Shown here piece after piece: positions 8,692-42,126 of a stretch of 64,000 nucleotides of DNA; the first letter of the stretch is position 1; each line of letters opens with the position of its first letter. The DNA comes from Alkalimarinus coralli (GTDB taxonomy: Bacteria; Pseudomonadota; Gammaproteobacteria; Pseudomonadales; Oleiphilaceae). Location of the stretch: contig NZ_CP096016.1 of NCBI RefSeq assembly GCF_023650515.1, positions 2,854,001 through 2,918,000 of the forward strand. Reading direction: 5' to 3'. The notes under the pieces are model-generated. The model was not told where the DNA came from. It did not search any database and saw only the letters and a program-made list of their open reading frames with translations. The position numbers and the translations under genes are program-made.

Positions 8692-11178
8692 CTACTTCTG
8701 AACCTTTCTCTTACGGGGCTGTGCGCTCCCTGCCTTTGCGGTTCGTGGCGTCGATTTTTTAGCTGAAGCGCTCTTTTTGCCTTTCTTCTTTGTTATTTTT
8801 TTCTTTTTACCCTTCCCCTTCTCTGGCATTTTATCCAGCAAGGCCTTCCGTTTACTCTTTGGGCCAGACTTGGCTTTTCCTTTTTCAGCGGTTGGCCCGC
8901 GTCTACCCGCAGGTGCGCCCGCCCTACTTTTTCCATTTCTGCGACGGGGCTGACCCAGAATCTCAAAGTCAATCTTTCGATCATCAAGGTCTATCCTGAC
9001 GACCTGAACACTAACGGTATCGCCCAGGCGATAACTGGCACCAGTGCGCTCTCCTACCAGTCGATGCTTCGCCTGATCGAAGTGATAGTAATCACTCTTT
9101 AACGAAGAAACATGCACCAACCCGTCGATATACAGGTCTTTGAGTTCAACAAAAAAGCCAAACGATGTCACGCCTGAGATAATACCTTCAAACGTTTCAC
9201 CCAAGTGCTGCTGCAAGAACTCACATTTGAGCCAGCTCACCACATCACGAGTCGCTTCGTCTGCTCGTCGCTCTGTCATTGAGCAATGCTCGCCCAACTG
9301 CAACATCTGCGGCAAGTCATAGTGATATGGGTTTTCACTTGGCTTAATCACGTCAGTTCGTAGCACCTGAGGGCAAGGCACTTCGCTATGAATCAGCGAT
9401 TTAATGGCACGGTGTACCGTAAGGTCAGGATAACGCCTGATAGGCGACGTGAAATGAGCATAGTGAGGGTAACCCAGTCCAAAGTGGCCTTCCTCTTCGG
9501 GGCTGTAAACAGCCTGGCTCAAAGAGCGCAGCATTACCGTTTGGATCACACTAAAATCCGGGCGCTCTTTTATCTGCCCAAGTAGTGTCTGATAATCTGA
9601 AGGTTTTGGCTTATCTCGATCACCTTGTAACTGCAAGCCAAGCTCGCCTAAAAACTCTCTCAAATTTTCAAGTTTTTCAGCGCCGGGGCCTTCATGCACA
9701 CGGTATAGCGTGTGCATTTTGTTCTTCTTAAGAAAACGAGCCGTCGCAACGTTAGCTGACAACATACACTCTTCAATAATCTTGTGTGCTTCATTACGCT
9801 GTGTTGGCACAATTTGCTCAATCTTACGTCCTTCACCAAATAGTATTCGGGTTTCGACTGTTTCAAAATCAATCGCACCACGCGCATCCCGCGCCCACCT
9901 CAAGGCATGGTAAAGGTCAAAAAGGTGATGCAAATGAGGCAGGATATTCGAATAACGTTCGCATAACTGCTGACCTTCTTCGCTCTCAGGGTGCTCCAGC
10001 ATCGAACTCACCTTGGTGTAGGTCAGTCGCGCATGAGAGTGCATAACGCCTTCGTAAAATTTGTAGCCGCTTAACGCACCATTGGCACTAATGGTCATTT
10101 CACAAACCATACAGAGCCGATCTACTTCCGGGTTTAATGAGCACAGGCCGTTTGACAAGACTTCAGGGAGCATTGGAACAACATGGTCAGGGAAATATAC
10201 CGAGTTCCCTCTGTTATACGCTTCCTGGTCAAGAGGTTGCCCCCTCTTAACGTAGTGAGCCACATCGGCTATCGCCACGTACAGTCGCCAGCCACCCGAT
10301 TTTTTAGGTTCACAATAGACCGCATCATCGAAGTCTCGAGCATCTTCGCCATCAATCGTCACCAGAGGAAGATGACGAATATCGATTCGGTGTTGCTTAT
10401 CGGCTTCTGCCACTTCGCCTGAAAAAGCCTTTACCGCCTGAGTAACTTCAGCAGGCCAAACAAAGGGAATACTATGGGAACGAATGGCAACATCAATCTC
10501 CATTCCCGGTGCCATGTGATCGCCCATGACCTCAACCACTTTACCGACGGCACTGGTGCGCACAGTCGGATGCTGAGTAATTTCTACCACAACATACTGG
10601 CCATGCTTGGCGTCCATACAGGCATCAAGCGGAATCATGACATCGTTCGCTATTTTGGTATTCTCCGGGGTCACAAACGCAATGCCACTTTCAAGGCAAA
10701 GACGTCCGACCACCTGCGCTGTATTTCGCTCCAGCACCTCAACAATAATAGCCATTCGCCGTCCGCGCTGATCAACATCATCAACACGTACCAGCACTTG
10801 GTCACCATGAACCACTGAGCGCATTTGTCTGGCCGTTAGGAACAGATCATCTGTGCCGTCTTCGGGTATGACAAAGCCAAAGCCATCTTTATGCCCCTGC
10901 ACCCGGCCTTTAATTAAACTAATGCTGCTAGTCGGCACATACTGCCCACGCCGGTTACATATAAGTTGCCCATCACGGCTCATGGCGATCAGGCGTCGCC
11001 TAATCGCCTCGATAGAATCTTCATCTTTCAAATTTAGCGCCTTGCACAACTCTGGGTGAGTCGCCGGTGCTTTTGTTTTTTCCAAATGCGCTAGAATAAA
11101 CTCTCGGCTAGGCACTGGATTATCGTACTTCTCCGCCTCTCTCTGGGCATAAGGATCACGTACTTTTTTCTTTGACAT
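8692..11178 (-). CDS. rnr: Ribonuclease R
   Basis: An 828-residue processive 3'-5' exoribonuclease of the RNB family that degrades structured RNA. An N-terminal winged-helix region (about 20-80) and cold-shock domains come first. The RNB domain has the catalytic aspartates in DGEDARDFDDAVYCE at about 276-290 and later HFTSPIRRYPDLTVHRAI. A C-terminal S1 domain (FEGIISGVTSFGFFVELKD) is followed by a lysine-rich tail of about 90 residues (repeated KKK and KGK), as in E. coli RNase R. The tail and S1 domain distinguish it from RNase II. It is upstream of rlmB on the same strand with a palindromic repeat between, and the two are probably cotranscribed. Confidence 0.96.
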   Translation of the reverse strand: MSKKKVRDPYAQREAEKYDNPVPSREFILAHLEKTKAPATHPELCKALNLKDEDSIEAIRRRLIAMSRDGQLICNRRGQYVPTSSISLIKGRVQGHKDGFGFVIPEDGTDDLFLTARQMRSVVHGDQVLVRVDDVDQRGRRMAIIVEVLERNTAQVVGRLCLESGIAFVTPENTKIANDVMIPLDACMDAKHGQYVVVEITQHPTVRTSAVGKVVEVMGDHMAPGMEIDVAIRSHSIPFVWPAEVTQAVKAFSGEVAEADKQHRIDIRHLPLVTIDGEDARDFDDAVYCEPKKSGGWRLYVAIADVAHYVKRGQPLDQEAYNRGNSVYFPDHVVPMLPEVLSNGLCSLNPEVDRLCMVCEMTISANGALSGYKFYEGVMHSHARLTYTKVSSMLEHPESEEGQQLCERYSNILPHLHHLFDLYHALRWARDARGAIDFETVETRILFGEGRKIEQIVPTQRNEAHKIIEECMLSANVATARFLKKNKMHTLYRVHEGPGAEKLENLREFLGELGLQLQGDRDKPKPSDYQTLLGQIKERPDFSVIQTVMLRSLSQAVYSPEEEGHFGLGYPHYAHFTSPIRRYPDLTVHRAIKSLIHSEVPCPQVLRTDVIKPSENPYHYDLPQMLQLGEHCSMTERRADEATRDVVSWLKCEFLQQHLGETFEGIISGVTSFGFFVELKDLYIDGLVHVSSLKSDYYHFDQAKHRLVGERTGASYRLGDTVSVQVVRIDLDDRKIDFEILGQPRRRNGKSRAGAPAGRRGPTAEKGKAKSGPKSKRKALLDKMPEKGKGKKKKITKKKGKKSASAKKSTPRTAKAGSAQPRKRKVQK

Positions 11179-11316
11179 TCAATTTCCTGCAGCTCTGCTG
11201 CGTTGTTATAAACTCTGGTTTCAAAAATATCTGGGGGTTCATTTAGCAATTGCACTCATTATAGCGGCAAAGCCCCACACAAGCTCAACTATTGATAACG
11301 ATCCCCCAAAAATTCG

Positions 11317-11345
11317 TTGACAAAAAAATAGGGGCTGGTTAAAGT
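11317..11345 (+). promoter_or_regulatory. Sigma-70 promoter of tRNA-Leu
   Basis: TTGACA at 11317-11322 and TAAAGT at 11340-11345 are separated by exactly 17 bases. The start point would be near 11352, about 68 bases before the mature tRNA. The GC-rich bases after the -10 (TCGCC) resemble a stringent-control discriminator, as expected for stable RNA. Confidence 0.8.
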
Positions 11346-11419
11346 TCGCCTCACATTTGGGGCTACCAACCCCCACAGATCAATACACATCTATTGTTAC
11401 GATCATATGTATACCCTCT

Positions 11420-11506
11420 GCCGAGGTGGTGAAATTGGTAGACACGCTAGCTTCAGGTGCTAGTGCTCTTCGGGGCGTGCCGGTTCAAGTCCGGCTCTCG
11501 GCACCA
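11420..11506 (+). tRNA. tRNA-Leu (anticodon CAG)
   Basis: An 87-nt class II tRNA. GCCGAGG pairs with TCTCGGC (one G-U) as the acceptor stem and the CCA end is encoded (11504-11506). The anticodon arm is CTAGC-TTCAGGT-GCTAG with CAG at 11454-11456, reading CUG. A long variable arm (TGCTCTTCGGGGCG) and a GGTTCAAGTCC T-loop complete the leucine pattern. A strong promoter lies upstream. Pseudomonads also have a tRNA-Leu next to rnr. Confidence 0.96.
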
Positions 11507-31858: not shown

Positions 31859-33106
31859 ATGAACTTGGTTGCCCGCTTAGCCAAACGAAATATATTTAGA
31901 AACACTCGCCGTACCCTACTGACCGTGCTCCTTATTGCCTGCGGGTTGGCTGCACTGTTATTTACTGATGCCTTTATCAGGGGGATGGCCGCATCAATGA
32001 TTAAAATCAGTACTGAGACATTTTTGGGCGATGCGCAAATCCACCAACGCGAGTTCCGCGAAGCCAATGATATCGATGTCTATATTCAGAATATCCCCTC
32101 CCTTTATCTGCAGCTGGACAATATGCCTCCCATCAAGGCCTACGCCCCTCGTACCATAACAGGCGGCATGATTTCATCATCTGAAAACGTTTCAGCAGCG
32201 GTTATTTACGGCATTGATGCAGCAAAAGAAGCTCAGGTCAGCAAACTCAAACAGGCAATAATCAAGGGTCAGTACCTAAGCGGCACCAGCGATGACCACA
32301 AAAACAGTAGTACCAGTCACGAAATATTAATTGGCGACGATCTAGCAGACCTGTTGGAAGTCGATCTTGGTGACCGAATCGTCGTGACGCTTTCGCAAGC
32401 CCATGGCGGTGAGCTATCTCAGGAGCTATTCAGATTATCCGGCATATTCCACTTCAATGACCGCCATATGGACAAGGGCATGGCGTTTATAAATCTGGCG
32501 CAGGGGCAGTCAATGTTAGCGATTAACGGCATTCATGAAGTAGCGATTCGCCTACAGGATGTGTCACTGGCCGATGATGAAAGCCTGGCACTATGGGAGA
32601 CTCTTAATAACAAAGACTTAGAAACGCTCAGTTGGCGGGAGCTAGTGCCTCAGTTGAGCAGCATGTTAGACATGAGCAGCTACAGTACACTCATTGTGTC
32701 TATCATCATGTTCATCCTGGTTGCCCTCGGGCTGATCAACTCAATGTTTATGTCTATTTACGAGCGCCATAACGAGTTCGGCATCTTATTAGCGATAGGC
32801 ACCCGACCACAACAGCTTTTCTGGCAGATACTATTGGAAGGCCTGCTGATCGGCTTACTCAGCCTGATAGTCGGTTTGATTTCAGGGGCATTACTAAGCT
32901 ACTGGAAATCGGTCAGCGGCATCGACTATTCAGGAACCGAAATGTCAGGCATATCGCTGAATGAGCCCATCTACCTCATCATCAATTATCTGGCATTTGC
33001 TAAAATTTCACTGTCTATTTTGGCCATCACTGTATTGTCATGTATTTACCCGGCACTCCACGCGGCGCGGTTACAACCATCATTTGCTATGCGAAAAGCA
33101 CTTTAA
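31859..33106 (+). CDS. FtsX/MacB-type ABC permease (second subunit)
   Basis: 415 residues with the same layout as the gene before it. ARLAKRNIFRNTRRTLLTVL opens the protein and ERHNEFGILLAIGTRPQQLF is the coupling segment. The two permeases differ greatly in their periplasmic domains, so they probably form a heterodimer like LolC/LolE. It starts two bases after the preceding stop and ends nine bases before the ATPase gene. Confidence 0.85.
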   Translation: MNLVARLAKRNIFRNTRRTLLTVLLIACGLAALLFTDAFIRGMAASMIKISTETFLGDAQIHQREFREANDIDVYIQNIPSLYLQLDNMPPIKAYAPRTITGGMISSSENVSAAVIYGIDAAKEAQVSKLKQAIIKGQYLSGTSDDHKNSSTSHEILIGDDLADLLEVDLGDRIVVTLSQAHGGELSQELFRLSGIFHFNDRHMDKGMAFINLAQGQSMLAINGIHEVAIRLQDVSLADDESLALWETLNNKDLETLSWRELVPQLSSMLDMSSYSTLIVSIIMFILVALGLINSMFMSIYERHNEFGILLAIGTRPQQLFWQILLEGLLIGLLSLIVGLISGALLSYWKSVSGIDYSGTEMSGISLNEPIYLIINYLAFAKISLSILAITVLSCIYPALHAARLQPSFAMRKAL

Positions 33107-33115
33107 GGAACCTAA

Positions 33116-33826
33116 ATGAGCGCTTCTGCTACCAACACTCAAACGGTTATTGAAACCAGAAATTTGTGTCGCCACTTTGGAAAAGGTGAAACACTGGTCA
33201 AAGCGCTCGACGACGTAAACATAACCATTGAACCCGGCGAATTCACGGCGATAATAGGCCCATCCGGCTCTGGAAAATCCACTCTCCTGCAGTTGATTGG
33301 GGGGCTGGATAAACCCTCTTCCGGTGAAGTGATCCTTGACAATAAAGATATTAGCCACATGTCGGGCACTGAGTTATCCGACTTCAGACGAGACCATATC
33401 GGCTTTATTTTTCAGGCCTACAACCTCATCCCGGTGTTGTCTGCGGAAGAAAATATTGAATATATTATGCTCCTTCAAGGATTACCCGCCGCAACGCGTA
33501 AACGTCGCGTCAGCGCCATATTAAAAGCCGTCGGCCTGGAAGGAAAAGGCAATCGCAGGCCTGCACAGCTCTCGGGAGGTCAACAGCAACGCGTCGCAGT
33601 TGCCCGGGCAATGGTCTCCCAACCCAGCCTTATTCTGGCAGACGAACCTACCGCTAATCTTGACTCTCATACCGGCGCTTCGCTTCTGGATATGATGAAA
33701 ACGCTGAATGAAACAGAGAAGATGACGTTTCTGTTCTCTACTCACGACCCCAAAATAATGGAGCGAGCCCGCCGTATTATCAGACTTGAAGATGGTTGTA
33801 TTGTTGATGATGAACGACGCGATTAA
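33116..33826 (+). CDS. LolD/MacB-like ABC ATPase
   Basis: 236 residues. Walker A is GPSGSGKST at about 50-58, the Q-loop is FIFQAYNLIPVLSAEEN, the signature is LSGGQQQRVAVARA, Walker B is LILADEPT and the switch His is in FSTHDPKI. It is of the short LolD/FtsE class. Powers the two permeases just upstream. Its stop overlaps the start of the next gene at one base. Confidence 0.93.
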   Translation: MSASATNTQTVIETRNLCRHFGKGETLVKALDDVNITIEPGEFTAIIGPSGSGKSTLLQLIGGLDKPSSGEVILDNKDISHMSGTELSDFRRDHIGFIFQAYNLIPVLSAEENIEYIMLLQGLPAATRKRRVSAILKAVGLEGKGNRRPAQLSGGQQQRVAVARAMVSQPSLILADEPTANLDSHTGASLLDMMKTLNETEKMTFLFSTHDPKIMERARRIIRLEDGCIVDDERRD

Positions 33827-35103
33827 TGGCGGTGAAGATGAGCTTACAACACGCATCTCATTTATCAGACCACAGACAACACAAAGGCCTGGCACTTGCG
33901 GCAATCTTCTTATTGGTGAATTCAACTGCACTCAATGCCACCGATTTTTTCTACAGCGGATATCTGAAATCCTACGCGTTATGGCAAGATACCATAGACA
34001 TAGAACAGGCACCCAGCAACCTAAGCAGTCAATTCCAGTCACAAAATGCGATGCGATTGATGGGCAGTGCGTACACAGAAACCAGTGGCAATGTAGAAGT
34101 ACACTATGAACTACAACCCGTCTATTACTCTGAACCTCAGATAACGAACTCCAGTGGCATCAGCTCCACGTTATCTCTGGGCTCAAACCGGTATCGATAT
34201 AAAGATCTAGATGTAAAACTTAAAGACGACAGTGACTATATTATCGTCTGGCAAAACCTAGATAGGTTTAACTACCAATACGGTAATGAATATGGCGATA
34301 CAACCATTGGGCGTCAGGTCATTTCGTTCGGCTCTGCCCGCTTTATCAACCCGACGGATATATTTATCCCGTTCACTATTTCAACACTTAACCAGGAGTA
34401 CCGTGTCGGTATCGATGCCATTCGTTATCAAGCAGACTTGGGGGATTTTGCCTTGCTAGACACCGGCCTGATCATTGGGGAGAATGCGGAAAGTGAAAAT
34501 AGCGCGCTATTCTTACGTGGAAAGAATTCAGTCGAGGGTAACGACATCGAAGGCATGTTTATTAAGCTCGACAATGCCTGGCTGATTGGCGGAGGGGTAG
34601 AACGCGCACTGGGTGACTATGGCTTTTGGTTTGAAACGGCCTATATGCATCTGGGTAACAACTCAGCGGATAGCTATTGGCGATCATCAATCGGTACAGA
34701 CTATGCGGTTGATGATAATGTCATCGTCATGCTTGAGTACCACTACAACGGTGCCGGCAGCAATGACCCGTCCAATTACGTTGAATTGCTCTCAGCAGAG
34801 CCTTATCAAAAAGCAGGTATATTCCTTCTCGGCCAGCACTATCTGATACCTGCTATTTCATGGATCGCCACACCACTCGTGTCTGTTAACGCCAACGGCT
34901 TTTTCAACTTAAGTGATCAATCCGTTTTTATTAACCTGAGCAGCGAAGTGAGCTGGAGCGACAATCTATACTCTGACTTCGGCACATATATTAGCTATGG
35001 GGACAATCTGGAATACGATGCATTAACCCAACGCCCCCAATTTGGCTCTGAGTTTGGGGCCTACCCACTTAGCCTCTATGCCAGCCTTCGGTATTATTTT
35101 TGA
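33826..35103 (+). CDS. Outer-membrane beta-barrel protein of the ABC operon
   Basis: 425 residues. A signal peptide (hydrophobic KGLALAAIFLLVNSTALNA at about 20-38) is followed by TDFFYSGYLKSY and many alternating aromatic strands such as FWFETAYMHLG and VMLEYHYNGAG. It ends YASLRYYF with the terminal Phe of barrel proteins. Its start overlaps the ATPase stop, so it is made with the ABC system. With the LolA-like protein it would complete an inner-membrane, periplasm and outer-membrane path. I do not recognise the barrel family. No ligand is suggested. Confidence 0.75.
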   Translation: MAVKMSLQHASHLSDHRQHKGLALAAIFLLVNSTALNATDFFYSGYLKSYALWQDTIDIEQAPSNLSSQFQSQNAMRLMGSAYTETSGNVEVHYELQPVYYSEPQITNSSGISSTLSLGSNRYRYKDLDVKLKDDSDYIIVWQNLDRFNYQYGNEYGDTTIGRQVISFGSARFINPTDIFIPFTISTLNQEYRVGIDAIRYQADLGDFALLDTGLIIGENAESENSALFLRGKNSVEGNDIEGMFIKLDNAWLIGGGVERALGDYGFWFETAYMHLGNNSADSYWRSSIGTDYAVDDNVIVMLEYHYNGAGSNDPSNYVELLSAEPYQKAGIFLLGQHYLIPAISWIATPLVSVNANGFFNLSDQSVFINLSSEVSWSDNLYSDFGTYISYGDNLEYDALTQRPQFGSEFGAYPLSLYASLRYYF

Positions 35104-35279
35104 GGGCCTACGGTAAACACTAAACCATGTCGCGTAACATAACCGGAACAGAGTTGCCTTTCTAAAACCTCCGACCAAAATAAAAACCCATAACTCGTTG
35201 ATAATACAAGCTATTAGTACTATGGCGTGCAACTTGCTCAGTTCTAGTACTACTTATATTTAGACTAAACAGTGACCTC

Positions 35280-35921
35280 ATGTCTATGCAAATAAACAAC
35301 CCAACCCTACTTACGCCCACGACAAATAACGACAGCACTAAAGTTCAATCCACCGCTAATGTTGAGAATAAGGGCTCAACGGATGAAAAGGCGGCAAATA
35401 AAGAGAGCGATATAAAGCTTTCAAGCCGAGCTCATAAGATTCAGATGCTTAACGAAGAGTTTTTCCCAGGCGGCCCGGCAAGTGTGGCGATAACACCAGG
35501 CTTTATCCAACGCCTTCATGAGTATGGTTTTATCTCTGACACAGAGTTAGAAAAGTTAGATGTCGCAAAGTCAGAAGAGCAGAAACCTTCCGGCACGTTA
35601 GGCGAACTATCGAAAAAAATTGACAGCCTGAGTGATCGTTTAACAAGCGAATCCCCCGATGACAGTCTGATAGGTATCCTGACCCGAGCAGACGCAATCA
35701 TTAATAACCTGGATGGTTCAAAACCGTCGCCTTTAACAGGCGACATAAAAACGGTGAGTGCTGAATTGAATGCCTATATGGGGAGTAGCGATGCAGACAA
35801 GTTAGCAGACGCAGAGAAAAAAATGATGGATGAGTTAAGCCTGACACTAAAAATCGCAGACAAGCTAAACCCGAATAATGCATCCTCTCAAAAGCTAAAC
35901 AGCTACTTGTCGTTTATGTAG
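35280..35921 (+). CDS. Soluble protein of unknown function
   Basis: 213 residues with no signal or membrane segment. The first 45 residues are polar and low in complexity (Asn, Thr, Ser, Lys), followed by SSRAHKIQMLNEEFFPGGPA and TPGFIQRLHEYGFISDTELE, which look like a helical domain conserved enough to be real. The C-terminal part is helical with many Asp/Ser/Leu. No clear ribosome site precedes the ATG. A terminator follows directly. I do not recognise the family. The flexible start and small helical body would suit an adaptor or regulatory protein, but that is inference. Confidence 0.5.
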   Translation: MSMQINNPTLLTPTTNNDSTKVQSTANVENKGSTDEKAANKESDIKLSSRAHKIQMLNEEFFPGGPASVAITPGFIQRLHEYGFISDTELEKLDVAKSEEQKPSGTLGELSKKIDSLSDRLTSESPDDSLIGILTRADAIINNLDGSKPSPLTGDIKTVSAELNAYMGSSDADKLADAEKKMMDELSLTLKIADKLNPNNASSQKLNSYLSFM

Positions 35922-35934
35922 TTTTATCTTTCAT

Positions 35935-35965
35935 CACCAGAGGAAGCTAATTTCCTCTGGTGTTT
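35935..35965 (+). terminator. Strong hairpin terminator
   Basis: CACCAGAGGAA and TTCCTCTGGTG pair perfectly over 11 bases, with a TTTATTC tail. It lies 14 bases after the stop of the unknown soluble protein. Confidence 0.75.
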
Positions 35966-36160
35966 ATTCGTTTGTCGTTATCACTTAAAACACTGCGACT
36001 ATGGCTCGGACGGATGCTCATTCCACGTTACTGCCATAATTGCAATCTTTAGCAAGCCCCCATCCTATAGAACATCATTTATTCCAATAAACTACTTCTC
36101 AAGTAAGCACTCTCCCGCTACGAGCTTAATATTACTCATCTGCTTATTAACGTTCATTTT

Positions 36161-36235
36161 ATCGGGCGCGGGGCACCCTCATACTTCTTTGTAGCCACAC
36201 ATTTCCAAGGTCTTTGTAGGTGCCCCGCGCCCGAT
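36161..36235. repeat. 17-bp perfect GC-rich inverted repeat
   Basis: ATCGGGCGCGGGGCACC at 36161-36177 is exactly complementary to GGTGCCCCGCGCCCGAT at 36219-36235, with a 41-base spacer that is itself not GC-rich. The arms stand out sharply from the AT-rich surroundings. No T run follows and no target duplication was found. It could be a dispersed repeat or a very stable RNA hairpin. Confidence 0.7.
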
Positions 36236-36238
36236 TCT

Positions 36239-36293
36239 ATCTTCCGCGACAATCTTCGCGCCGATAAACAAGACACCCATATTAACAGTTGTT
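36239..36293 (+). repeat. 55-bp patch built from two pieces of the thioesterase locus
   Basis: Bases 36239-36264 match 39701-39726 (inside the thioesterase gene) at 24 of 26 positions. Bases 36260-36293 match 40056-40089 (upstream of that gene) at all 34 positions. The two matches overlap at GCCGA, which occurs at both source junctions. So this patch looks like a copy in which about 330 bases were lost by recombination at a five-base microhomology. Confidence 0.7.
36284..36293. promoter_or_regulatory. Candidate upstream activator box 1
   Basis: AACAGTTGTT differs by one base from the perfect palindrome at 36407. It lies about 290 bases upstream of the predicted sigma-54 start. It falls in the patch shared with 40056-40089, which tempers the claim. 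Confidence 0.25.
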
Positions 36294-36406
36294 GATTTTT
36301 ATAGCTTGAGTGTCTGTTAGTGGTTCTTTGTTTTAGTCTAACCGTTTATTAAAACGATTCCGTATTTCACGGTATTAGGCGGAACCAGAAAAGTTTTACC
36401 TCGCCT

Positions 36407-36416
36407 AACAGCTGTT
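36407..36416. promoter_or_regulatory. Candidate upstream activator box 2
   Basis: AACAGCTGTT is a perfect 10-base palindrome about 165 bases upstream of the predicted sigma-54 start, a usual distance for an enhancer-binding protein. It is 123 bases from box 1. The following bases (CATTT) recur next to a partial copy at 36530-36542. Confidence 0.3.
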
Positions 36417-36549
36417 CATTTTTAGTTGTTTAATACGCAACATTTTTCGCAGAGTCAATGCGACATAAAATAACTAAAAACCAATCACTATAATTTTAAA
36501 CGCTTAACTATCAACACGTTAAAACGAATTAACTGTTCATTTGAAACGG

Positions 36550-36566
36550 TTGGCACGCCCTCTGCA
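36550..36566 (+). promoter_or_regulatory. Sigma-54 (RpoN) promoter
   Basis: TTGGCACGCCCTCTGCA matches the -24/-12 consensus TTGGCACG-N4-TTGCA except for one base (C for T before TGCA). The GG and GC dinucleotides have the required 12-base spacing. The start would be near 36577, giving an 80-base leader before the peptide gene at 36656. RpoN promoters need an activating ATPase bound upstream, and palindromic boxes are present at suitable distances. Confidence 0.72.
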
Positions 36567-36655
36567 ATACCTTAAGTACGAACCAACAAAGTAATACAAA
36601 AGGTTCTACTACTTAAACTCAAAACACTTAAAAGCACGACTCAGAGGATACGACT

Positions 36656-36922
36656 ATGACAACGTTAGCCCTTAACACTTCGAATATCACAAACCTGAAC
36701 ATTGCAGACCTTGCCACGAGCAACGAATTAGACAGCAAAGCCCTTAAAGCTATCGCAGGGGGTTATAGCTACTGGACAGGCTGGTCAACCCAGTACAAAT
36801 TCCGCGGCACCACCTTTTTAGGGTATGTATACAAAAACGGTAAGCTTCGCTCCAAGATTCGTAAGCACCACAGCCGCAAGTGGAGCAAGACTAACTACTT
36901 CTCTACTGACCATATTGTATAA
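36656..36922 (+). CDS. Small peptide with double-glycine-type leader (bacteriocin-like precursor)
   Basis: 88 residues. The N-terminal part is polar and Asn/Thr/Leu-rich, and ends in ELDSKALKAIAGG (residues 24-36). This is the double-glycine leader pattern cut by C39-type peptidases during export of bacteriocins and some RiPPs. The predicted core (37-88) starts YSYWTGWS, is rich in Tyr and Trp, then strongly basic (KLRSKIRKHHSRKWSK). It has no Cys, so lanthionine chemistry is unlikely. GAGGA lies close before the ATG. It sits behind a sigma-54 promoter and before a terminator, so it is monocistronic. No peptidase-ABC exporter, immunity or modification gene is adjacent. It could instead be a signalling peptide. 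Confidence 0.6.
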   Translation: MTTLALNTSNITNLNIADLATSNELDSKALKAIAGGYSYWTGWSTQYKFRGTTFLGYVYKNGKLRSKIRKHHSRKWSKTNYFSTDHIV

Positions 36923-36947
36923 GTTAAGGGTTATTCTTCATCAAACA

Positions 36948-36977
36948 ACAAAGGCGTGACTATTGAGTCGCGCCTTT
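36948..36977 (+). terminator. Terminator after the leader-peptide gene
   Basis: AAAGGCGTGACT and AGTCGCGCCTTT pair around ATTG with one G-U, followed by a T run. It shows that the peptide gene forms a transcript of its own. Confidence 0.85.
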
Positions 36978-37123
36978 TTGTTGCCAAGCCAATATCACTG
37001 CCTAACTTATACCAATACTTCTTAATTTTTGTGCAGAATGATGCGTAAGCGATCAATAAACCCCATCTAACATCAGCTCAGATGTTCAATTACGCTCAAA
37101 CCTCACCAATGATGGGGTAAACC

Positions 37124-37438
37124 ATGAGCAAACCAGCATTAACAGAGAAACAAACTTACTGGCTCAATCACATCCAACAATGTGAGCAGCAGAAACTAAC
37201 AGCTCCGGTCTACTGTGATCAACATGACTTAAAAGTATCACAGTTTCATAGCTATAAACACGAGCTTCGACGCAAGGGCGTTATTCGAACAGAGCCGTCA
37301 TCAGCTGCTTTTGCAAAAGCCACCGTCACGCTTCCGCAAAAGTCTGTCCCTCGCAAGCAACCACCCCCCGTTTTTTCTTGCTCTGTTGTCTGGGGCAAGT
37401 TCAGATTACAAATGACGATGGGTAGCCCGCTGTTATGA
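37124..37438 (+). CDS. tnpA: IS66 accessory protein TnpA
   Basis: 104 residues. ALTEKQTYWLNHIQQCEQQK and APVYCDQHDLKVSQFHSYKH are the usual start of the IS66 orf1 product, a small putative DNA-binding protein needed for transposition. It is the first gene of the element. Its stop overlaps the tnpB start by four bases (ATGA), giving coupled translation. Confidence 0.88.
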   Translation: MSKPALTEKQTYWLNHIQQCEQQKLTAPVYCDQHDLKVSQFHSYKHELRRKGVIRTEPSSAAFAKATVTLPQKSVPRKQPPPVFSCSVVWGKFRLQMTMGSPLL

Positions 37439-37794
37439 TGAGACCTGATAACTCGTCGGTTACCGTCTATCTGCATAGAGAGCCAGTGGACTTCCGTAAA
37501 TCAATCAATGGGTTGGCAGTTTTGGTGGAGGCTGAGATGAACCTGAACCCATTCGAGGAAGCCCTATTTGTGTTCTGCAATCGTCAGCGAGATAAAATTA
37601 AGATACTGTACTGGGAGCGTAATGGATTCTGTCTCTGGTACAAGCGCTTGGATAAAGAGCGATTTAAGTGGCCTAAAAAACTGGGGGAAGATGTTATTAA
37701 CCTGACAGGCCAGGAGCTAAATTGGCTGCTGGACGGCTTTGATCTTTGGAACAATAGACCTCACCAAACCCTGAATTATCAGTCGGTTATCTAA
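37435..37794 (+). CDS. tnpB: IS66 accessory protein TnpB
   Basis: 119 residues. VYLHREPVDFRKSINGLAVL and ALFVFCNRQRDKIKILYWER are the IS66 Orf2 (TnpB) core, and ERNGFCLWYKRLDKERFKWP completes it. It is required for IS66 transposition, with unknown biochemistry. The last residues (WNNRPHQTLNYQSVI) are slightly longer than usual. Six bases separate it from the next reading frame. Confidence 0.92.
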   Translation: MMRPDNSSVTVYLHREPVDFRKSINGLAVLVEAEMNLNPFEEALFVFCNRQRDKIKILYWERNGFCLWYKRLDKERFKWPKKLGEDVINLTGQELNWLLDGFDLWNNRPHQTLNYQSVI

Positions 37795-37818
37795 GCGATT
37801 TTGGGTATAATACCAGGC

Positions 37819-39393
37819 ATGAAAATCACCCCGGACAACCTACCTGACGACGTTGAAAGCCTTAAGGCTTTAGTACAAGAGCAACAAGTGCTGTTGGATA
37901 AAAAGCAGGCTCGTGTGGAGCATCTAGAGGAGCAGTGGCGTCTGTTCCTACATCGTAAATTTGCCTCGCAAAGCGAGAAAGCGCCGGGTCAGGGTGAACT
38001 CTTTGATGAGGCTGAAGCAGCCGCAGAAGATCCTATTATTGAACTCGATGCGGAAGCTACCCCAAGTTCTGAAACTAAAACTAAAGCCAAGACTCGTGGC
38101 CGTAAACCATTACCGTCTGAACTGCCTCGCGTTAAAGTAATCTATGATCTTCCTGAATCTGAGCTTCAATGTCCTTGTGGCTGTCAACTCACGGAAATGG
38201 GTGAAGAAACATCGGAACAGCTTGATATCATTCCTGCCAAAATCCGCGTACTGCAGCATATTCAGAAAAAGTATGCCTGCAAGGCCTGCGAGGGGAATAT
38301 CAAAATAGCCACCAAGCCAGCTCAACCAATCCCAAAGAGCAACGCCAGTGCGGGATTGTTGGCTCATGTTGCGGTCTCAAAGTATCAGGATGCGTTACCG
38401 CTTTACAGACAAGAAGGCATGTTCAATCGTGTAGGCATTCACCTTCCTCGGCAGACACTAGCGAACTGGATGACCCGTGTCAGTGAGTTACTGCAACCAC
38501 TGATCAATCTAATGCGTGACCGATTGCTTGAGAGCCCCGTCATTCATTGCGATGAAACGGTGGTTAAGGTTCTTAAAGAACCGGACAAACCTGCCAGTAG
38601 TCAATCCTATATGTGGGTCCAGGTTGCGGGGCCACCACAACAACGTATTGTCCTGTTTGATTATGATCAGAGTCGTTCCGGTCAGGTACCTCTGCGCCTG
38701 TTGTCCGGCTATCAAGGCTACCTGCATACCGATGGTTATGAGGGCTATAATGCCGTCGCGTCACAACCAGGTATTACCCAGCTCTGCTGTATGGCGCATG
38801 CTAGGCGCAAGTTTATGGAAGCAAAAAAAGCGCAACCTAAAAATAAAGTCAAGACCAGAGGAAAAGCTGATGTTGCCATCGACATGATCGGTAAACTGTA
38901 TGGACTTGAACGGGCTTATAAAAGTGCGAAACCGGAAACCCGCTATCAAATGCGACAGGAAAAAGCGAAACCGGTAATAGACAAGCTTCGAAAATGGTTA
39001 GACAAAACTGTCTCGACGGTGCCACCGACCACTTTACTGGGAAAGGCCCTGCATTATATGGATAAATACTGGTCGCGCTTGACCATATATTTAGACGATG
39101 GCCAACTACAGATCGATAACAATGTTGCGGAAAATGCTATTCGCCCGTTCGTAGTGGGGCGTAAAAACTGGTTGTTTAGTGATACCCCGAAAGGAGCCCA
39201 TACCAGCGCCCGAATTTATAGTGTTATCGAAACAGCCAAAGCGAATGGACTGGAGCCTTATGCTTATCTCAAGCAGCTGTTTACCCAGTTACCGTTAGTC
39301 GCAAACGTCAATGACGTGGAGGCACTGCTGCCATGGAATCAGGACCTAACGACTTTGCTCATGAACGAAACGTTACCGCAAGGTGTGAATTAA
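37819..39393 (+). CDS. tnpC: IS66 transposase TnpC
   Basis: 524 residues from ATG 37819. An N-terminal coiled-coil and zinc-binding region (CPCGCQLTEMG, CKACEG) precedes the DDE domain. The catalytic segments are VIHCDETVVKVL, LHTDGYEGYNAV and DNNVAENAIRPFVVGRKNWL, and SVIETAKANGLEPYAYL closes the family signature. The frame is intact. It ends 11 bases before the right inverted repeat ends. Confidence 0.95.
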   Translation: MKITPDNLPDDVESLKALVQEQQVLLDKKQARVEHLEEQWRLFLHRKFASQSEKAPGQGELFDEAEAAAEDPIIELDAEATPSSETKTKAKTRGRKPLPSELPRVKVIYDLPESELQCPCGCQLTEMGEETSEQLDIIPAKIRVLQHIQKKYACKACEGNIKIATKPAQPIPKSNASAGLLAHVAVSKYQDALPLYRQEGMFNRVGIHLPRQTLANWMTRVSELLQPLINLMRDRLLESPVIHCDETVVKVLKEPDKPASSQSYMWVQVAGPPQQRIVLFDYDQSRSGQVPLRLLSGYQGYLHTDGYEGYNAVASQPGITQLCCMAHARRKFMEAKKAQPKNKVKTRGKADVAIDMIGKLYGLERAYKSAKPETRYQMRQEKAKPVIDKLRKWLDKTVSTVPPTTLLGKALHYMDKYWSRLTIYLDDGQLQIDNNVAENAIRPFVVGRKNWLFSDTPKGAHTSARIYSVIETAKANGLEPYAYLKQLFTQLPLVANVNDVEALLPWNQDLTTLLMNETLPQGVN

Positions 39394-39433
39394 TTACCGC
39401 TTACAATGATGCAGACCTGAGATGAGAAAATAA

Positions 39434-39994
39434 TCAGGAGTTTCGGTACTTTTGAAACTCGGCGTCAATTTCTTCTTCAGTCATCGTATCGTAGTTTCCA
39501 ATCCATGTGTCATGAACCTCTTTGAGCCTTTTGTCGTGCTCTTTTCTAAGCTCTTTGCGTAGCTTTGCTGCTATATAACGACCCTTTTGGCGATCCCCTT
39601 GGAAATCTAACGGCGGTACTGTGCAGGGTTTTCCCGTCTCATCAACAGCGACCATCGTGAAATAGCAGCTATTTGTGTGTCTTTTCTCGTGTGTATGAAT
39701 ATCTTCCGCGACAACCTTCACGCCGACCTCCATAGACGTGTTGCCGACATAGTTAACCGAACTATAAAACGTCACGACCTCGCCTATTTTAATCGCCTGT
39801 TTAAAGACAACCTGATCGACTGACAGGGTGACTGCATATTTACCGCTGTAGCGTGCTGCACAGGTATAAGCCACTTGATCCAATAATTTTAAAAGGTTAC
39901 CGCCGTGTACATTACCTGAGAAGTTAGCCATATCTGGCGTCATTAGCATGGTAAAAATGACGGGCTCGTTTGAACCAAATTGTGTATCGGCCAT
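39434..39994 (-). CDS. Acyl-CoA thioesterase (hot-dog fold)
   Basis: 186 residues from ATG 39994 (MADTQFGSNEPVIF); a TTG at 40018 would add eight residues but has less support. The hot-dog helix NVHGGNLLKLLDQVAYTC holds the usual catalytic Asp (LLDQVA), and KYAVTLSVDQVVFKQAIKIG follows, as in the YciA/ACOT family that hydrolyses acyl-CoA. A charged C-terminal extension of about 40 residues is present. It lies between the IS66 element and the integron-like cassettes, on the same strand as the cassettes, but no attC-like site follows it. Confidence 0.85.
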   Translation of the reverse strand: MADTQFGSNEPVIFTMLMTPDMANFSGNVHGGNLLKLLDQVAYTCAARYSGKYAVTLSVDQVVFKQAIKIGEVVTFYSSVNYVGNTSMEVGVKVVAEDIHTHEKRHTNSCYFTMVAVDETGKPCTVPPLDFQGDRQKGRYIAAKLRKELRKEHDKRLKEVHDTWIGNYDTMTEEEIDAEFQKYRNS

Positions 39995-40055
39995 AGTTTC
40001 ACTCTTGTTAAACTTCAAGGGGGGGGTTAAAAGGCCGATAGTTTAACTGAAGACT

Positions 40056-40089
40056 GCCGATAAACAAGACACCCATATTAACAGTTGTT
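40056..40089 (+). repeat. 34-base repeat, second copy of 36260-36293
   Basis: GCCGATAAACAAGACACCCA and the next 14 bases are identical to 36260-36293, 3.8 kb away, on the same strand. It lies just upstream of the thioesterase gene. An ACTGCCGAT arm overlapping its start pairs with ATCGGCAGT at 40118-40126. Confidence 0.9.
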
Positions 40090-40227
40090 CTTCTGAACCG
40101 ACTACGTAGATGAAAAAATCGGCAGTGGTGAACCAAACGAAAAATAGGGAAAATTTAAATTTTCGAGTCCCTATCCTTGCGGGCCTTCAGGCATTTGTGC
40201 CCTTGACAAGCACCGGTCATATAGATG

Positions 40228-41184
40228 TTAAATATTTTTTGCACGCTCTACTTGTTCCAAGTAAGTTTCTAGCATAAACGTACCATACGTAACCATGCTG
40301 TTTACCAACATCCTTACATGCCTTGCCGACAAGGCGTACCTTTTTACCCCGTGACCATGAGCTGAACTATAGCCCGTTCTGAGCGCCCCGATACCAACTA
40401 TTACATTGTGAATCCCTCCGAGCACCCTTTTAATTTCGGCGTTATCATAGTCTTCTGGAGACAGGTTAAGCACCTTAGAAGTAGTGCTCAGTAGATTAGA
40501 AATATTCTGCTTTTTTGGGATCTGCTCACCTTCTAGTTCAAGTATGCATTTGCAAATGCTTTCAAGTGTTGAGGAAGAACTTGCAATTGCCTGATCTGGG
40601 TCCGAATCAATAGATTTTATTGCTCTATCAAAATCAGAGATGACTGAATATAGATCATTGCCTTTGATCATTTCGATAAGTGTTTTAGAACATACAGTCC
40701 CTTGTTTATCGAGCTTTAGGTCGCAAATTATTTGCGATATAACATTCGAGTTAACCTGCTTCAGGAGGTCTTGAACATAGACTCTCTTACTCGGAACAAT
40801 TGATACATCGTCAGTTTGAATTCCAAATGCAGACAAATAGGCATTTATCTCAGATGTGACCATCATATCTTGAAGGTGATAAGCTATATCATTTATTGCT
40901 GAAACTCTCTCGCTGGGGGTTAGGCTTGCTTTAAGCGAAGTACCTAGTTCGTACTCAAGTACGTTCACTAAGTAAGATGCCTGACCAGTTATATTATCTA
41001 TGTTTTTTAAGGAAGCATCTATCTCAAAGCCAATCGAGTCAAGTCCGTCTTTACGAAGTAGAAACTTCAACCTCTCTAAGATTGAAGAAAATTGAGAGTC
41101 GATTAGATGCTGATATTTTGAATCTTCAAAATACCAATTGAGATCAATATCCAGATTTTTCAAATCTTTAAGAATCTTTTCCAT
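40228..41184 (-). CDS. Abortive-infection-family protein (Abi C-terminal domain)
   Basis: 318 residues, soluble. The C-terminal region (about 225-312) with RVLGGIHNVIVGIGALRTGY, SSAHGHG and LSARHVRMLVNSMVTYG resembles the Abi_C domain of abortive-infection phage-defence proteins, which has a conserved R-x-G...HG motif. The N-terminal half is helical with no recognisable enzyme motif. It begins 33 bases after the attC-like site at 41217-41320, a normal cassette leader length. Its own downstream attC was not found, so the cassette edge may be lost. The base composition is lower in GC than the neighbouring housekeeping genes. Confidence 0.68.
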   Translation of the reverse strand: MEKILKDLKNLDIDLNWYFEDSKYQHLIDSQFSSILERLKFLLRKDGLDSIGFEIDASLKNIDNITGQASYLVNVLEYELGTSLKASLTPSERVSAINDIAYHLQDMMVTSEINAYLSAFGIQTDDVSIVPSKRVYVQDLLKQVNSNVISQIICDLKLDKQGTVCSKTLIEMIKGNDLYSVISDFDRAIKSIDSDPDQAIASSSSTLESICKCILELEGEQIPKKQNISNLLSTTSKVLNLSPEDYDNAEIKRVLGGIHNVIVGIGALRTGYSSAHGHGVKRYALSARHVRMLVNSMVTYGTFMLETYLEQVERAKNI

Positions 41185-41216
41185 AAGTCTGGCTCATACT
41201 CTCAAGCTCGTTGGCC

Positions 41217-41320
41217 ATTTAACGTCCGGCTCAACGGTGGAGTATTTTGGCCCACCTTATTGCGGGTCTTTTGCAATAAAAGAGCAAAAATACGGAATCC
41301 GTTGCAGCTGCTGGTTAGAA
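41217..41320 (-). repeat. attC-like integron recombination site 1
   Basis: An imperfect palindrome of 104 bases. On the minus strand it starts with TCTAAC and ends in GTTAAAT, which fits the GTTRRRY core exactly. Inside, GCTGCAACGG pairs with CCGTTGAGC leaving one extra G, the extrahelical base that orients attC folding, and GTATTTT/AAAATAC continues the stem. It lies 8 bases after the stop of the small zinc-ribbon gene and 33 bases before the Abi gene, exactly where a cassette junction should be. Confidence 0.78.
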
Positions 41321-41327
41321 GTCACTG

Positions 41328-41615
41328 TTATTTTTTGAGTTCGTGAAGGCAGTTCCAGCACTTATCTTTTGGCCAGTACCACTCATGTATAAACAAGCCT
41401 CTTATTATTTGTTTTTTGCCGCAATACTTACACTTAAGTGTTACTACATAGTATAAGAGGTAAATCATGTAAGCCATGAACAACCAGTAGTGCCAACCTG
41501 CATCGTCAAAAGCAGCTTCAATTGATGTTGACGGTACACTCAATAATTTATGAGTTGCACCAAGTATGACAAGTACTGCGATAAGAAATAATAACTTTTT
41601 CTTTTGATAACTCAC
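41328..41615 (-). CDS. Small membrane protein with C4 zinc ribbon (cassette gene)
   Basis: 95 residues. A signal-like helix (about 6-24) and a second helix (about 43-60) are followed by a cytoplasmic or periplasmic tail with CKYCGKK and CWNC, two CxxC pairs 21 residues apart that could bind zinc. No family was recognised. Its stop lies 8 bases before attC-like site 1, and attC-like site 2 is about 195 bases upstream, so it is the sole gene of its cassette. Confidence 0.6.
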   Translation of the reverse strand: MSYQKKKLLFLIAVLVILGATHKLLSVPSTSIEAAFDDAGWHYWLFMAYMIYLLYYVVTLKCKYCGKKQIIRGLFIHEWYWPKDKCWNCLHELKK

Positions 41616-41704
41616 TGTAATTCCTTGTGATGATGAAAACTTCTAACGAGCTTGTAGAAAAACCTGCCCGGCTTTCAATGAAGCGCGCGTACGTTAATTT
41701 AAAA

Positions 41705-41738
41705 TGAAAAGTAGAGGTAAAACCTATCTACTTTTCAC
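41705..41738. repeat. Hairpin in the leader of the zinc-ribbon cassette
   Basis: TGAAAAGTAGA at 41705-41715 and TCTACTTTTCA at 41728-41738 are perfect complements around GGTAAAACCTAT. It lies between attC-like site 2 and the small membrane gene. It may be a terminator, a regulatory hairpin or a repeat; no choice can be made. Confidence 0.5.
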
Positions 41739-41810
41739 GTAACCGCGCCATTTTTTGTCTATTTTATGTTCAATATCACTTGAACAAAATCCAATTTAGT
41801 TATTCTACAG

Positions 41811-41907
41811 CCTCAACGCCCTGCTAAACGGCGGAGTACAAGTGGCGACTTTTTTGGAACAAAAAAGGTGCGACTTGTACGGAGTCCGTTTGAGCTGTTG
41901 GTTAAGG
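41811..41907 (-). repeat. attC-like integron recombination site 2
   Basis: 97 bases. The minus strand begins CCTTAAC and ends GTTGAGG. AGCTCAAACGG pairs with CCGTTTAGCA leaving one extra base, as in site 1, and ACTTGTAC/GTACAAGT extends the stem, with a small loop at the centre. The BrnA stop codon TAA lies inside the first core box, the usual place for a cassette gene to end. The boxes match the core consensus less well than in site 1. Confidence 0.72.
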
Positions 41908-42126
41908 TCTTTTGTTCCAGGTTAAATTGAGAGTTCGATGTTGAGCAACACAATCTCTTAGATATAGATTGATAAGGCTCTGATATGGAACGCCATTTTC
42001 TTCTGACATATCTTTAAAATATGCCACGACATCTTCGCTTAACCTAATAGTCACAGGCTTTTTAAGCTTTGAAGCGTAAGGGTTTTTACGCGACTTCATT
42101 TTTGAAAGGTCGTATTCTGCTTTCAT
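41902..42126 (-). CDS. brnA: BrnA-like antitoxin
   Basis: 74 residues from ATG 42126, chosen for GAAGGTGG upstream; an ATG at 42141 would overlap the toxin gene. KPVTIRLSEDVVAYFKDMSEENGVP is a ribbon-helix-helix DNA-binding domain, with GVPYQSLINLYLRDCV as its dimer helix. BrnA binds and neutralises the BrnT ribonuclease and represses the operon. The preceding toxin stop is one base away. The stop is embedded in attC-like site 2, marking the end of an integron cassette. Confidence 0.88.
   Translation of the reverse strand: MKAEYDLSKMKSRKNPYASKLKKPVTIRLSEDVVAYFKDMSEENGVPYQSLINLYLRDCVAQHRTLNLTWNKRP

Follow-up and report, generated by a model that had tools for sequence, protein, structure and literature searches.

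The window analysed here is a stretch of 64,000 nucleotides of the Alkalimarinus coralli genome, and the locus under study within it consists of one short gene and its upstream region. The gene encodes an 88-residue peptide with a Gly-Gly (GG) motif at residues 35-36, as a preliminary description of this DNA, made from the letters alone, had proposed, and it is preceded by an RpoN (sigma-54) -24/-12 promoter, a pair of GTT-N11-AAC boxes and an IHF-type site. The elements of the locus, all on the forward strand, are the following.

36393..36409, + strand, upstream activating sequence (UAS) box 1, GTT-N11-AAC (GTTTTACCTCGCCTAAC), a probable site for an enhancer-binding protein (EBP) as judged by sequence
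36425..36441, + strand, UAS box 2, GTT-N11-AAC (GTTGTTTAATACGCAAC), 32 bp from box 1
36509..36521, + strand, IHF-type site TATCAACACGTTA (consensus WATCAANNNNTTR)
36550..36566, + strand, RpoN (sigma-54) -24/-12 promoter TTGGCACGCCCTCTGCA, of the form TGGCAC-N2-CCTCTGCA in 9/9 promoters
36572..36616, + strand, possible hairpin near the mRNA 5' end, conserved sequence with 12 predicted pairs
36656-36922, + strand, peptide ORF of 88 aa, GG at residues 35-36
36656..36763, + strand, leader, residues 1-36, ending in ELDSKALKAIAGG, 23 of 36 columns invariant in nine copies
36764..36919, + strand, predicted mature core of 52 residues, 46 of 52 columns invariant in nine copies
36920-36922, + strand, stop codon of the peptide gene
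36950..36980, + strand, probable terminator (inverted repeat and T run), read by eye

Values computed from the translation give the 52-residue core a mass of 6.4 kDa, a pI of 10.3 and an F/W/Y content of 23%, with Cys absent and YSYW as the predicted N-terminus, and its characterization as aromatic and basic is borne out. Pfam and NCBIfam gave the peptide no family above cut-off, and PADLOC gave none at E 1e-5; its leader scores 11.9 bits against PF10439 (Bacteriocin_IIc; cut-off 27.1) and the peptide 12.3 bits against TIGR04149 (rSAM-modified RiPP; cut-off 25). Sequence matches of the peptide in the PDB were antibody chains (best E 0.094) and were judged to be composition noise, and a structure model with a mean pLDDT of 45 was unusable. 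The sequence of the 5' hairpin is conserved and its structure is a prediction, with 0/12 pairs changed on both sides and no covariation. The probable terminator is not among the listings of the automatic terminator scan.

Neither a C39 exporter nor a recognisable immunity gene was seen in 32000-42000, in agreement with the preliminary description. The FtsX/MacB-type ABC pair at 31859-33826 does not belong to the C39 exporters. IS66-type genes (Orf2-like and transposase, by Pfam) follow immediately after the peptide gene at 37124-39393, and the gene at 40228-41184 on the reverse strand encodes an abortive-infection C-terminal domain (Abi_C 5e-16; PADLOC AbiJ 1.8e-17). Just upstream lie a 213-aa ORF (35280-35921) with no Pfam match and a sub-threshold FlgM-like match only, and an exact 16-bp inverted repeat, TCGGGCGCGGGGCACC, at 36162-36234 with a spacer of ~40 bp. 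The latter also occurs downstream of another copy of the peptide gene (L012) and may be a dispersed repeat.

Eight full-length copies of the peptide gene, 92-100% identical, are present in the 4.83-Mb genome. They lie in four regions, of which two are clusters of three; other ORFs invariably separate the copies, and the ORF lists place no C39 exporter beside any of the eight. A congener (G001) carries one full-length copy and one C-terminal fragment, and no copy was found in the other 56 relatives searched. The nine-sequence comparisons used throughout comprise the eight own-genome copies and the intact G001 copy. Homologues with a conserved GG leader, on which the preliminary description had staked its proposal, thus exist as these nine genes and as related peptides elsewhere. 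The mean dS is 0.65 and dN/dS 0.047 over 75 codons (core 0.032, leader 0.075), values by which the copies look old and selected rather than like a recent burst.

These figures bear on two alternative readings of the gene. The first is that the copies are a spreading cassette, in which recent duplication would account for the conservation and the promoter would be carried along passively, and the grouping of the copies and the IS66 element directly downstream of the window copy are what would be expected of it. We regard this as very improbable given a dS of 0.65 at a dN/dS near 0.05, the divergence of the sequence upstream of the -24 element except at the boxes and the IHF-type site, and the two positions that appear to be shared between species. 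The intact G001 copy lies near the same desaturase gene as own-genome copy L014, and the G001 fragment sits at the place of copy L013 with its promoter and N-terminal part missing; in the copy tree the intact G001 gene is nearest to L015, not L014. The second reading is that the peptide is an antimicrobial class II-type microcin directed against neighbours, with the same regulation and export as in the model preferred below. A GG leader, which resembles Bacteriocin_IIc weakly and below threshold, and a cationic aromatic core would suit it. Nevertheless, a microcin is rather unlikely: the cores are near-identical and under strong purifying selection instead of diversifying, no immunity gene was recognised by eye around the copies (with families scanned around the window copy), though an unlinked one may exist, and the Pfam and PADLOC results given above fall short of any assignment.

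The promoter element TTGGCACGCCCTCTGCA at 36550-36566 differs from the consensus YTGGCACGNNNNTTGCW at one position, and in this respect the site was correctly read in the preliminary description. When TGGCACNNNNTNTGCA is allowed up to one mismatch, the window holds one match, an exact one, and shuffled windows average 1.65 matches with at least one in 79/100; a single match in 64 kb is within chance, and the weight of the assignment therefore falls on conservation. Across the 4.83-Mb genome, the exact -24/-12 pattern has 10 matches (1 in the control, ~2 expected from base composition), and 8/10 of these stand in front of the eight peptide copies. An alignment of the upstream regions of homologues, as had been recommended, shows TGGCAC-N2-CCTCTGCA with GG-N10-GC spacing conserved in 9/9 promoters, that of the congener included. 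A sigma-70 scan of 35900-37200 returned four sites, all on the reverse strand and none on the forward strand. From 14 EBP-domain matches in the genome we infer that an rpoN gene is present. A full-promoter pattern with the GC one base off matched 5/8 of the own-genome promoters as well as that of the congener; its four other matches, one each in G000, G003, G004 and G009, were at control level and were dropped.

Counted from the GG of the -24 element, the two boxes begin at approximately -159 and -127. In 9/9 promoters the pair has no more than one mismatch over both boxes, which 0/4500 dinucleotide shuffles match at the same positions (0.3% of shuffles reach it anywhere in 200 bp), a test that is post hoc in that the motif was defined on the same nine promoters. 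Other genera provide the independent checks, and GTT-N11-AAC boxes were sighted independently in another genus of the family (G009) and, in exact form, in 6/11 Burkholderiales promoters. The sequence WATCAANNNNTTR, which we take to be the IHF consensus and on which the calling of TATCAACACGTTA as IHF-type is based, is found exactly at -43/-42 in 7/9 promoters and by eye with one mismatch in the remaining two, whereas it falls at that position in 0.02% of shuffles; it was not seen in the exporter promoter described below, in the G009 promoters or in the 11 Burkholderiales promoters examined. Between these conserved elements, alignment of the nine upstream regions shows diverged sequence. The GTT-N11-AAC boxes are probable activator-binding sites of an EBP, as suggested by their sequence and placement. 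The preliminary description was right that conserved boxes lie upstream, but the palindromes that it named are other sequences: AACAGCTGTT at 36407, which overlaps the right end of box 1, is exact in just 2/9 promoters, and AACAGTTGTT at 36284 is unshared, by eye, in the nine-promoter alignment. Both were rejected as activator sites. An early, poorly specified UAS pattern, with 94 forward and 99 reverse matches against 75 and 108 in the control, was also discarded.

How would the product of a gene with no adjacent exporter leave the cell? Pfam yields five C39 matches in the genome, and a distant C39-peptidase ABC transporter, of the kind that the preliminary description had envisaged, was located in an operon (L029; G000:C1 ~1,154,400-1,165,050) that also encodes an EBP and lies 1.7 Mb from the window gene. 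The operon comprises genes for an outer-membrane efflux protein (OEP), an FHA protein, an HlyD protein, a PpiC-like isomerase, the exporter and the EBP. The exporter, P0002 (1018 aa, in a frame of 1020 aa), carries two N-terminal cNMP-binding domains followed by C39 and ABC domains. The best family of the isomerase is TIGR04500 (PpiC-related putative peptide maturation protein), at 95.5 bits over residues 22-267, yet this is below the curated cut-off of 180 bits. The operon promoter combines an RpoN-type site, TGGCACTGCATTTGCT, and a single GTT-N11-AAC box, which is exact and lies at -148; any candidate for a second box there has at least two mismatches. Because the genome has 14 EBP-domain matches, the assignment of this particular EBP to the peptide promoters is based on synteny and on the shared boxes.

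The EBP (428 aa) consists of a sigma-54 AAA domain (Sigma54_activat 3.5e-71) and a lid, and its sequence contains GAFTGA, presumably the sigma-54 interaction loop motif of EBPs. No receiver, GAF or other sensor domain was detected in it by Pfam at E 0.01. Accordingly, the suggestion that an enhancer-binding ATPase senses a signal and triggers peptide release is borne out as to the presence of an EBP but not as to direct sensing through a Pfam-recognisable domain. The surroundings of the operon suggest another route. Upstream of it are genes for a pentapeptide-repeat channel, an autotransporter-type protein, a PP2C phosphatase and a second FHA protein, as well as a second GG-leader peptide with no sigma-54 site in the tested span, and downstream are those for a Ser/Thr kinase and a caspase-domain/Sel1 protein. 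An indirect path for a signal to the EBP may run by way of the FHA protein, the kinase and the phosphatase.

With the exporter and the EBP in one operon that has a box of its own, the layout would permit positive feedback, and the near invariance of the core among copies would also suit a pheromone, a signalling peptide acting back on the kinase/FHA/EBP circuit. Such a role is unlikely: for a pheromone, a length of 52 residues and a dose of eight genes are both on the large side, no receptor for it came to light, and Pfam shows no sensor domain in the EBP.

The genome also encodes other C39 proteins, in frames of 735 aa (ABC domain confirmed) and 742 aa. A CvaB-like C39-ABC exporter, separate from the EBP-linked one, is found with a GG-leader peptide of its own at L030:7665-7931 (reverse strand) and 9274-11451. 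Export of the window peptide by one of these (the CvaB-like exporter in L030, or that of L031) must be weighed against export by P0002. We consider it decidedly unlikely, because a GG peptide with a different kind of leader is encoded next to the CvaB-like exporter, because two congeners that have C39 frames of 731 or 749 aa and lack the EBP-linked exporter have no peptide copies, and because a window-type leader with a related core is found beside an EBP-linked exporter elsewhere.

In congeners G001 and G002, the genes that lie on either side of the operon's island in the own genome stand close together, and none of the operon genes was found in the 40 kb examined from each; the EBP-linked exporter was found in none of the four congeners at E 1e-200, and the three besides G001 have no peptide copy either. 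The intact G001 copy with its promoter, in a genome in which the island is absent, weakens any claim of strict co-occurrence. Read from the sequences, the fragment and the closed-up flanks fit a secondary loss of the system in G001, though the position of the intact G001 gene in the copy tree, nearest to L015, qualifies this.

The operon is sparsely distributed. Its exporter is present in 2/97 relatives at E 1e-200 and its EBP in 3/369 genomes of the class at E 1e-105, the own genome being included in both counts. The orthologous operon of G009 (EBP 55% and ABC 53% identical) and a gene for a GG-leader peptide whose core contains WWWLYQ, preceded by a sigma-54-type site, are divergently oriented, and both G009 promoters share a box pair upstream, one box exact and one with a mismatch. 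A scan of an 84,980-species collection with the isomerase alignment yielded 25 loci, including Burkholderia, Paraburkholderia, Caballeronia, Trinickia, Noviherbaspirillum, Herbaspirillum, Paucimonas, Thauera and several MAGs, and three more came from plasmid records (H1-H3, of four Burkholderiales plasmid matches).

Among 30 loci, the ABC exporter and the isomerase are each found in 29, the EBP in 27, and HlyD, FHA and OEP in 22 each, with all six in 19; the three EBP gaps are at contig ends. L128 and L140, whose contigs have the lengths of those of L116 and L111, were left out of these counts as duplicates, and the counts are not independent, as L122/L153 are from the same species and L134/L158 from the same genome. 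Five loci (L117, L119, L123, L136 and L137) contain the isomerase, ABC and EBP genes and show no OEP, FHA or HlyD match with ~10 kb of upstream sequence covered, which indicates that a shorter form of the locus exists. PP2C is present in 18/30 loci and the kinase in 12/30 (E 1e-8), and a caspase-domain match in 13/30 (E 1e-3; confirmed by Pfam in L116 and L134 only); since the loci were cut at 10-14 kb or end with their contigs, absences of such neighbours carry little weight. Upstream of the first operon gene, a sigma-54-type site occurs in 12 of 22 loci and is accompanied by a box in six of these, a count that took in scores of 9 or higher out of 12 up to 450 bp before the aligned start, with no control set.

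The leader pattern of the window peptide is shared with peptides beside orthologous exporters, and at several such loci in Beta- and Gammaproteobacteria GG-leader peptides stand behind a promoter of this type. In 33 stretches, the ATG was preceded at 45-135 nt by a sigma-54 site in 17/41 GG-leader ORFs and in 14/385 control ORFs (ORFs of 150 aa or more from these stretches), and by a sigma-54 site together with a box (at most one mismatch) in 12/41 and 9/385, respectively; the Fisher values of 2e-11 and 2e-8 overstate these differences, given the relatedness of the loci and a leader motif that was settled once some of them had been read. The 41 ORFs include the second own-genome peptide. For 24/41, the tested span contains no sigma-54 site; some of these are later members of tandem arrays, and others, the second own-genome peptide included, are not accounted for in that way. 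At 11 Burkholderiales peptide promoters the box is exact in six and has one mismatch in one more. The GG-leader peptides of Burkholderiales at L119, L120, L121, L130, L133, L139, L141 and L154 form families, in which many cores are Asn/Ser/Gln-rich (e.g. TTNFSAQQLIGQSNSIVNNTGN) and some of the peptides are arranged in tandem arrays.

A peptide with a related core is found in the MAG IP29b_bin.155 (L134 = G462 C17), where a sigma-54 site and exact boxes precede it. Its core reads FLGNVYLQGK where the window core reads FLGYVYKNGK, and the whole-peptide pairwise E is 2e-6 with the leader included. For the cores alone the score is 49 against 27.7 for shuffles (sd 5.7, p 0.005), a modest similarity; of four control cores three gave nothing and one, from L030, was borderline (p 0.05). 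The same contig carries isomerase, EBP, kinase, phosphatase and caspase-domain genes, and another contig of this MAG carries OEP, FHA, HlyD and ABC genes flanked at both ends by a copy of the C-terminal part of the L134 peptide at 67% identity. Searches for more distant homologues found none in the genome contigs, plasmids or viral contigs searched, and these searches reach close relatives only, as the genome-contig search also missed the L134 peptide. Partial matches in six genomes besides the own one, of 390 in the order (E 0.015-0.05, 15.9-16.7 bits), were dropped as chance because their frames showed no GG-leader peptide.

Taken as a whole, these comparisons lead us to propose, with a probability of roughly 0.7, that a single RpoN-controlled peptide-export system has eight substrates encoded in trans, and that the window gene encodes one of them. 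The EBP of the operon would bind the GTT-N11-AAC pair and contact sigma-54 across a bent spacer, which in this genus would be bent by IHF, and would thereby fire all eight peptide genes together with its own exporter operon. The input to the EBP is probably Thr-phosphorylation through the FHA/kinase/PP2C module, because the EBP has no sensor domain and a kinase, a PP2C phosphatase and FHA proteins are encoded around the operon. The C39 domain would then cut the leader after GG, and the HlyD/OEP channel would release the cationic, aromatic core of 52 residues. The many near-identical, constrained copies suggest a bulk product whose dose matters. On analogy with EbfG of Synechococcus, we tentatively suggest that the core is a cell-surface or matrix protein, at odds that we put a little short of even. 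With slightly better than even confidence, we further hypothesize that the loci represent an undescribed secretion and signalling system across Beta- and Gammaproteobacteria, in which kinase, PP2C and FHA control a sensorless EBP, which through RpoN and the GTT-N11-AAC pair commands a C39 exporter and trans-encoded leader peptides, often with a caspase-domain partner alongside.

The nearest studied parallel found is that of EbfG1-4 and PteB in Synechococcus elongatus PCC 7942, where, according to the portions of the reports consulted, four redundant GG proteins serve biofilm formation and the C39 transporter PteB is needed for their efficient secretion (PMC4997328; PMC9981879). There, EbfG4 is described on cells and in the biofilm matrix and EbfG1-3 as forming amyloid structures (PMC4997328; PMC9981879), and ebfG1-4 are described as cotranscribed, under a regulation that was called unknown in 2016 (PMC4997328). 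Both systems pair several similar GG-motif proteins with a C39 transporter in one genome. In contrast to the window system, the EbfG/PteB accounts, so far as consulted, mention no RpoN, EBP, FHA, kinase or dispersed copies, and the likeness is drawn from description. In the Fap system of Pseudomonas, the text consulted gives a C39-family peptidase, FapD, as needed in secreting an extracellular amyloid, and presents it as periplasmic, with canonical C39 recognition sequences lacking (PMC5557850). A C39 peptidase is thus common to Fap and the window system, and no RpoN link was seen for Fap in that text.

Among exporters of known structure, P0002 aligns with 4ry2 (an ABC-type bacteriocin transporter, which we take to be PCAT1) over residues 302-1010, with ComA (8hf4) over 309-1010 and with HlyB (7sgr) over 310-1013. 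Unlike these three, P0002 adds two cNMP domains, shares its operon with FHA, PpiC-like isomerase and EBP genes, and has its presumed substrates encoded elsewhere. Class II microcins (GG leader, CvaB-type exporter), of which L030 is such a locus, share the leader type and the C39-ABC/HlyD route, whereas the window gene lacks an adjacent exporter or recognised immunity gene and has RpoN/EBP-type promoters and near-identical copies. A limited check of open-licence PMC literature found no description of an RpoN/EBP-controlled C39 exporter with dispersed GG peptides. The parts are of known kinds, and within the same limited check it is their combination (RpoN/EBP-type control of C39 export, peptides in trans and a Ser/Thr phospho-signalling neighbourhood) that is without a description found.

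GG-leader peptides are usually sought beside their exporters. Peptides of the window type are orphan genes across the chromosome that are tied to their exporter only by a shared promoter code, in which GTT-N11-AAC boxes and a -24/-12 site are followed by a GG leader. This code offers a way to find such peptides, just as the marker genes of the operon offer a way to find such systems. If the model is true, Ser/Thr phospho-signalling and RpoN would be tied to peptide release, and the function of a Gram-negative GG peptide would become directly testable, with dose, regulator and exporter each removable in one genome.

Three further observations concern genes near these loci. At L168:7604-10435 in the own genome, beside the Ser/Thr kinase gene, lies a gene for a protein with Sel1 repeats and a caspase (C14) domain. 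An exact box pair and a weaker sigma-54-like sequence, TTGGCATAACAGCTGCA, at L168:11278-11435 on the reverse strand stand upstream of an ORF of 151 aa of unknown family that adjoins the caspase-domain gene; by this arrangement the ORF is possibly a further member of the regulon, and it is noted as a lead only. In the MAG contig, a further sigma-54-type site, preceded by a GTT-N11-AAC box, was seen by eye at L134:9584-9681, and the gene behind it, which runs off the contig, is perhaps another peptide gene.
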